This document shows, in pieces, positions 63,670 to 64,000 of a stretch of DNA of 64,000 nt. Each line of letters starts with the position of its first letter. Position 1 is the stretch's first letter. The stretch is from Pseudomonas sp. JM0905a (GTDB taxonomy: Bacteria > Pseudomonadota > Gammaproteobacteria > Pseudomonadales > Pseudomonadaceae): assembly GCF_014700075.1 (NCBI RefSeq), contig NZ_JACXBU010000005.1, forward strand, positions 372,001 to 436,000, in the 5' to 3' direction. The translations under genes and the position numbers were made by a program. The notes under the pieces are model-generated. The model was not told the origin of the DNA, ran no database searches, and saw only the letters and a list, made by a program, of their open reading frames with translations.

Positions 63670-63682
63670 CGGAATGGCGGCG

Positions 63683-63720
63683 GGCCTGCGGAGCCTCGTG
63701 TTTTCGCAGGCCTTCCGTCT
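63683..63720 (+). terminator. Possible terminator after the aminopeptidase
   Basis: GGCCTGCG (63683-63690) and CGCAGGCC (63705-63712) with a 14-base loop, followed by TTCCGTCTTTTC. Weak. Confidence 0.45.
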
Positions 63721-63728
63721 TTTCTGAA

Positions 63729-63757
63729 TTGACCGTAGGAAGTCTCTGCGATTTACT
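63729..63757 (+). promoter_or_regulatory. Probable imuA promoter
   Basis: TTGACC (63729-63734), 17-bp spacer, TTTACT (63752-63757). The -10 overlaps the LexA box, as expected for repression. Confidence 0.5.
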
Positions 63758-63773
63758 GTATATAAATACAGTA
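63754..63773. promoter_or_regulatory. LexA (SOS) box
   Basis: TACTGTATATAAATACAGTA, which contains the consensus CTGT-N8-ACAG exactly with extra dyad symmetry. About 100 bp before imuA. Confidence 0.94.
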
Positions 63774-63791
63774 TTCGTAGGATTTCCCCTA

Positions 63792-63875
63792 ATGGCCTTG
63801 ATGATTGTTCCTGGCCCTTTCGGCAGCCCCGCCCCGGGGCTGCCGTTTTTCTCTTCTGGCAGTGAGTGGAGCTGA
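63792..63875 (+). CDS. Putative leader ORF (27 codons) upstream of imuA
   Basis: Open frame starting [20 protein letters not shown] and ending TGA at 63873-63875, whose A is the first base of the imuA ATG. It begins 18 bp after the LexA box and runs through the terminator hairpin at 63821-63850. The ribosome site is poor (CCCCTA), so translation is uncertain. Confidence 0.4.
   Translation: MALMIVPGPFGSPAPGLPFFSSGSEWS
63821..63850 (+). terminator. Intrinsic terminator between the LexA box and imuA
   Basis: CGGCAGCCCCG (63821-63831), loop CCC, CGGGGCTGCCG (63835-63845), then TTTTTCTC. Stem of 11 perfect base pairs. Confidence 0.85.
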
Positions 63876-64000
63876 TGGGCGCTGTCGTTGCCCTCGATGC
63901 CCTGCTCAATGAGCGGCGGGTCTGGAAAGGCCAGCCCGGCGCGCTGCCGTCCGATAGCGACCAACCCACCGGCCTTGCCGCCCTGGACCGGGTCCTGCCC
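63875..64000 (+). CDS. imuA: ImuA (SulA-like translesion mutagenesis protein), 3'-truncated by window edge
   Basis: First 42 codons: MGAVVALDALLNERRVWKGQ then PTGLAALDRVLP, the N-terminus of ImuA, a RecA/SulA-like protein that works with ImuB and DnaE2 in SOS mutagenesis. ATG at 63875 overlaps the stop of the leader frame by one base, with GTGGAG about seven bases upstream. A perfect LexA box lies upstream, and no lexA2 gene lies between it and imuA. Confidence 0.88.
   Translation, partial: MGAVVALDALLNERRVWKGQPGALPSDSDQPTGLAALDRVLP

Follow-up and report, generated by a model that had tools for sequence, protein, structure and literature searches.

A probable captured umuD start with an internal terminator-like hairpin as the predicted translation-gated leader of the SOS-controlled imuA operon in Pseudomonas

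Why should a short open reading frame (ORF) with a terminator-like hairpin inside it stand between a LexA box and imuA, the first gene of an error-prone repair operon? The question is raised by a locus of Pseudomonas sp. JM0905a, at the end of the 64,000-nt stretch of DNA that was analysed (here, the window). The order LexA box, 27-codon ORF, 11-bp hairpin within that ORF, TGATG and imuA, claimed in an earlier note on this DNA, is read directly in the sequence, where the following features are found:

63682 to 63713, + strand: terminator-like hairpin belonging to the co-directional gene upstream (aminopeptidase-like by translation), separate from the leader finding
63729 to 63734, + strand: TTGACC, possible -35 element; TTGAC is invariant in 13 of 13 aligned leaders
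63756 to 63771, + strand: LexA box CTGTATATAAATACAG, from direct reading and genus alignment; LexA binding is predicted
63777 to 63782, + strand: GTAGGA, possible ribosome-binding site of the leader ORF, in a conserved region; altered in L008 and L016
63792 to 63875, + strand: leader ORF, 27 codons plus TGA, ATG at 63792; its 5' end is homologous to umuD
63821 to 63845, + strand: terminator-like stem-loop in leader codons 10-18; 11 pairs, 10 of them G-C, loop of 3
63846 to 63855, + strand: U-tract TTTTTCTCTT, directly 3' of the stem-loop, in codons 19-22 of 27
63873 to 63877, + strand: TGATG, overlap of the leader stop (TGA, 63873-63875) with the imuA start (ATG, 63875-63877)
63875 to 64000, + strand: start of imuA; the window ends inside the gene, and the rest was read in the genome contig (L002)

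The LexA box agrees with the consensus CTGTN8ACAG and confirms the site given earlier as 63754-63773, a 20-mer that encloses the 16-nt box. Of the promoter claimed with it only the conserved TTGAC is visible, a sigma-70 promoter scan of the locus having found none (0.2 expected), and a minus-strand terminator is ruled out by the absence of a T-run on that side. The downstream gene is identified as imuA by the NCBIfam family NF033429 (219 bits, cut-off 150), no Pfam family being matched by its product, and it is followed in the genome contig by a gene with an IMS domain (imuB) and then by a long ORF read as dnaE2. The names recA, lexA, lexA2, dnaE2, aminopeptidase and SRAP-like neighbour derive from the reading of translations and not from family searches.

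The hairpin is rarely produced by base composition, since, of 20,000 dinucleotide shuffles of the 103-nt leader, 96 contained a stem of 9 bp or more followed by 6 or more T within 8 bases; a looser terminator scan of the surrounding 1.5 kb gave 3 hits for 1.6 expected, which alone is not significant. The same strict rule holds for 11 of the 13 distinct leaders of the genus, the exceptions being L015, with one mismatch, and L016, with a poorer U-tract, and hairpin energies across the 13 range from -16.2 to -23.6 kcal/mol.

Within the genus, a DNA search matched the leader region in 17 of 18 genomes, all except G004, and a covariance model built from leaders only (R1) recovered the element in 14 of the 18, with E-values of 9.2e-17 or better. 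A separate weak R1 match in G004 (E 1.1e-4) is taken as a chance terminator because no LexA box lies in the 60 bases upstream. Four genomes of the 18 lack the element or are not demonstrated to have it, and three of these have a coupled ORF and no hairpin (L017-L019, 18 codons ending in TGATG; the scan finds no hairpin). The best 80 of at least 479 loci were kept; the unoriented L106, L120, L124 and L125 were left out of the leader comparison, L106 being the same place as L009. In the 13 distinct sequences the LexA box, ORF, hairpin region and TGATG are all kept, and the ORF frame reaches the TGATG overlap in every one, in spite of length differences of minus one codon in L014 and plus three in L016, whose leader is identical to that of P. 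boanensis (L022). Pairwise identity amounts to 98% in the LexA box, 100% in TGATG, 98% in the U-tract and 88% and 93% in the stem arms, compared with 52% in the loop and 62% in the ORF tail, and to 86% and 90% in codons 1-9 and the untranslated leader, respectively. The comparison with relatives proposed in the earlier note has thus come out in favour of a kept frame, TGATG and hairpin, with tail codons that change freely.

The origin of the leader is indicated by its resemblance to the start of umuD. R1, applied to 298 genomes of the family, also matched umuD starts in other genera (G280, E 1.2e-6; G140, E 3.2e-4), and the reciprocal model R2, trained without any leader on 14 umuD starts, of which three come from viral contigs, gave 39 matches in 34 of 396 family genomes: 14 imuA leaders, 24 umuD starts and one lone terminator (E-values of both models come from a shortened calibration). 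All 14 hairpin-type leaders of the genus were found by R2, with per-genome E-values from 5.9e-9 to 1.4e-4 (1.4e-6 for the window), while 12 of the 24 umuD matches are so by construction, because they are the model's own training sequences. Among the matches listed, 20 of these 24 coincide with UmuD protein matches, the other four being truncated copies of umuD. Across 293 sampled genomes of the order, R2 matched the own genome only, and in 13 hairpin-free imuA loci it gave nothing convincing (best E 0.43).

At the peptide level, a profile HMM of 16 UmuD N-termini, chosen by motif, gave no more than 7.4 bits to any of 1176 background peptides; 12 of the 13 leader peptides exceeded this (11.2-18.8 bits), and L013 (7.2 bits) fell just short. 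When the HMM was instead built from 45 mixed UmuD N-termini, the best background score was 6.1 bits, and only 7 of the 13 leaders lay above it. The window's own leader appears as two of the background peptides, and both were left uncounted. Among the 48 umuD starts read in the family, 12 are of the ELPFFS type, and nine of these 12 carry a stem of 8 bp or more followed by 5 or more T within 8 bases. A terminator-like hairpin within the first 25 codons is present in 10 of the 48, nine times at the position seen in the leader and once, in L225, as a different, G-U-rich stem, and the remaining 38 have none. ELPFFS-type starts (L203-L208, L218, L220, L253) share with the leader the LexA box, the spacing, the N-terminal residues and the hairpin position: box and ATG are 36 nt apart in eight leaders (34 in L016) and 36-37 in eight umuD starts, and the hairpin starts 29 nt after the ATG in both groups (8 + 8). 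L250-L252 are repeats of L205, L218 and L220. The resemblance is lost beyond about codon 21, ahead of the UmuD cleavage region, and the leader runs only as far as imuA; in its 27 codons, with a diverging tail that lacks the GFPSPA region, there is no intact UmuD/S24 peptidase domain. The exact hairpin pattern occurs at three places in viral contigs, every one a umuD start, of which L253, MAKAFILGPIGSSAIELPFFSCHVP, resembles the L016 leader, MASVIVPGPIGSSLFELLSFYSC; no match was obtained in the phage records searched, and a plasmid search with the umuD 5' end returned one weak match, in a Vibrio umuD. On these comparisons, the most plausible reading is that imuA captured a truncated umuD start, together with its hairpin, as a leader. 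The earlier reading of the leader, right as to its layout, had missed both the umuD homology and the hairpin at the same place in umuD.

Some of the umuD matches have peculiarities of their own. The truncated copies L202 (match 1348-1446), L296, L297 and L298, in G140, G168, G172 and G152, respectively, end just after the GFPSPA codons, and in each case a similar TTTTCCCAT-A/G-T stretch comes next, pointing to a common site of insertion or rearrangement in umuD. The lone terminator (L299, G208:C12) is a GGGCAGCTC...GAGCTGCCC hairpin with a long T-run and without a umuD ORF, the sole R2 match outside umuD and leaders. The UmuD-like gene of the own genome (L249, G000:C41:275900-276200) has a weak 8-bp stem with ATTTTCGA in its first codons.

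Coupling of stop and start extends beyond the leaders with a hairpin. Among long leaders without lexA2, 36 of 44 distinct sequences have an ATG-started ORF of 11-48 codons that ends in TGATG or TAATG at imuA, and eight have no coupled ORF (L071, L080, L096, L154, L162, L163, L177, L178); this set excludes loci labelled lexA2, loci with less than 60 nt from box to imuA and loci without an exact CTGTN8ACAG, and the leaders shorter than 60 nt, from several genera and outside the count, have no coupled ORF. The sequences of the coupled ORFs differ between genera. In P. putida lexA2 is reported to be co-transcribed with imuABC (PMC5261740). Where other Pseudomonas have a lexA2-imuA-imuB-dnaE2 operon, the stop of lexA2 and the start of imuA share bases much as leader and imuA do here, as TGATG or TAATG in 61 of 68 loci labelled lexA2 by their C-terminal motif; at the present locus, by contrast, lexA2 is absent and a short ORF takes its place. 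When the leader tail was examined as a possible lexA2 relic, only L023, L013 and a few others stood out, null windows scoring as high in 0.6%, 1% and about 2% of cases, respectively. The stop-start arrangement is more widespread than the hairpin, the coupling itself being predicted. The g9 leaders of another genus (such as L032, L037 and L150) have coupled ORFs of 24-26 codons whose arginine-rich end (RRAHDRRRSPAGRP) is conserved, with a purine-rich GGGAGG shortly ahead of imuA and no terminator; the 48-codon coupled leader L031 (MAMCTISPGAIDRSAIRLPGCYSS...) is faintly UmuD-like, with an HMM score (4.4 bits) within background.

Whether the RNA structure itself is under selection may be judged from codons and pairs. 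A rule of 8 bp is satisfied by 12 of 13 leaders, and synonymous recoding with operon codon usage keeps the hairpin in 3-7% of recodings for these 12 and in 8-16% for the nine hairpin-bearing ELPFFS umuD starts. When eight of the 13 distinct leaders are aligned with nine of the 14 umuD starts, 97.4% of the cells form pairs and 13 carry changes in both partners, a number matched by none of 500 shuffles, which ignore ancestry; the number of further pair types is unremarkable, 412 of the 500 shuffles reaching it. The 14 umuD starts alone pair in 97.6% of cells, with three changed on both sides, and in the 13 leaders alone paired changes are modest (two pairs, one cell each), all these counts being uncorrected for shared ancestry. 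One pair change, from U-A to C-G, replaces Ser by Pro and Glu by Gly in the leader peptide and, since both encoded residues are altered, points to the pairing rather than the residues as what is kept. TTT stands at codon 19 in 12 of 13 leaders and TCT at codon 21 in 11 of 13, although in the operon stretches counted TTT makes up 7 of 52 Phe codons and TCT none of 75 Ser codons. A conserved functional tail peptide is rejected because codons 22-27 change residues freely, and the conservation of codons 1-9 is attributed to umuD ancestry.

Translation-coupled attenuation, proposed before the umuD origin was recognized, comes out of the kept frame, TGATG, stem and U-tract as the best-supported reading of the leader. 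Release of LexA would allow RNA polymerase to reach the terminator, some 60 nt beyond the start codon of the leader; a ribosome close behind it on the leader ORF would block the hairpin and favour readthrough, and on ending at the imuA start could re-initiate there, whereas lagging or failed leader translation would end the transcript after roughly 80-90 nt. Under this scheme, production of mutagenic repair proteins would be confined to SOS-induced cells still able to translate. Five of the 27 leader residues are proline and might, as a guess, slow the ribosome. Repression of an intrinsic terminator by a ribosome over or near it has been described (PMC4824070), and the pyrL hairpin is used likewise, slow proline-rich translation raising termination (PMC5021804). 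The umuD homology, the conserved stem and U-tract and the frame kept to TGATG are firm as sequence features; for the complete scheme, a umuD front of LexA box, ribosome site and about 21 codons joined to imuA, whose terminator would be silenced by the leader-translating ribosome, which is then delivered to imuA, we estimate a rough probability of 0.52.

The nearest known likeness is the pyrBI (pyrL) attenuator of E. coli, with an intrinsic terminator in a leader ORF that is suppressed there by a close ribosome (PMC4824070, PMC5021804). The imuA leader differs from it in its umuD derivation, its LexA promoter, the overlap of its stop with the next start and the lack of a U-run for nucleotide-dependent pausing ahead of the hairpin, the longest T run in 63773-63820 being 3. 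In the ampC attenuator of E. coli, a ribosome in the leader favours terminator readthrough without control codons. The same is predicted here, although the hairpin of the imuA leader lies within a full 27-codon ORF, itself coupled to the gene that follows. The control-codon run that precedes the terminator in attenuators of the trp/his type is missing: codons 1-10 contain no run for one amino acid, and the sole doublet, Phe-Phe, lies in the U-tract. With neither such a run nor a U-run before the hairpin, no sensed metabolite is indicated, and the minimum-energy fold, from single-sequence folding only, contains no competing antiterminator.

The leader may instead be a umuD relic that only feeds ribosomes to imuA through TGATG, its inherited hairpin stopping little transcription in vivo. 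The coupled ORFs that lack a hairpin, found in L017-L019 of this genus and in other members of the family, would fit this, as would a hairpin older than the fusion, already present in umuD; however, stem and U-tract are retained beside a drifting tail (62% identity), a TCT codon otherwise unused in the operon stretches persists at codon 21 in 11 of 13 leaders, and the U-A to C-G change kept the pair at the cost of both residues, and this explanation is considered unlikely, at something like one chance in four.

The conserved codons 1-9 and untranslated leader, together with the LexA-controlled RNA of about 80-90 nt with a strong terminator end that would result, might be taken to indicate a small SOS-induced RNA acting in trans, with imuA readthrough as a by-product, an alternative already raised in the earlier note. 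The conservation of codons 1-9 is nevertheless accounted for by umuD ancestry, Rfam gave four weak matches and none at gathering score (best VqmR, 19.2 of 76 bits), and there is no second copy of the element in the own genome (one full match and one weak partial, E 0.38), which makes a trans-acting role improbable. An even smaller chance is given to a hairpin that shields imuA from transcription of the upstream gene: a co-directional aminopeptidase-like gene does end 89-107 nt before the LexA box in nine of the 13 genus leaders, but eight of those nine already have an intervening terminator-like hairpin (weak in L016, none in L010), and the leader hairpin persists both in L008, whose neighbour appears divergent, and in three leaders with a different co-directional frame upstream of them (L009, L011, L013). 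The same hairpin is, moreover, found inside umuD ORFs.

If the terminator is indeed gated by translation of the leader, translation would be a second checkpoint on LexA control of error-prone repair, mutagenesis would require DNA damage and working translation together, and translation inhibitors are predicted to prevent the induced operon from being expressed even as RNA. A gene fragment would in that case survive as the regulatory leader of a different mutagenesis system, and for some umuD genes the data point to a predicted intragenic terminator. More tentatively, with the odds somewhat against it, a portable translation-gated terminator in the first 20 umuD codons may control both Pol V and ImuA-ImuB-DnaE2 in Pseudomonadaceae, sitting in umuD for the former and serving, as a captured umuD front, as the leader for the latter. 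Among the titles listed in searches of the open literature, none concerns an imuA leader or a umuD-internal terminator, so novelty is provisional, and the main text of an RNA 3'-end map of P. aeruginosa does not mention imuA or PA0671 (PMC8297930).

The hairpin leader does not appear to be a general SOS feature, judging from 10 of the 29 CTGTN8ACAG sites of the own genome. Of the 10, examined for terminator-like hairpins in the first 200 nt, only two (L187, L188) have one, both weak; the same scan found none at the genes read as recA, lexA and umuD, the weak umuD stem of L249 appearing under other limits. At L141 (G000:C22:543367), a 46-codon ORF (MSVSAPIRLPMPEQ...) comes after a LexA box, and a 103-aa ORF starts 195 nt downstream of that box; this may be a further SOS gene preceded by a small leader ORF.
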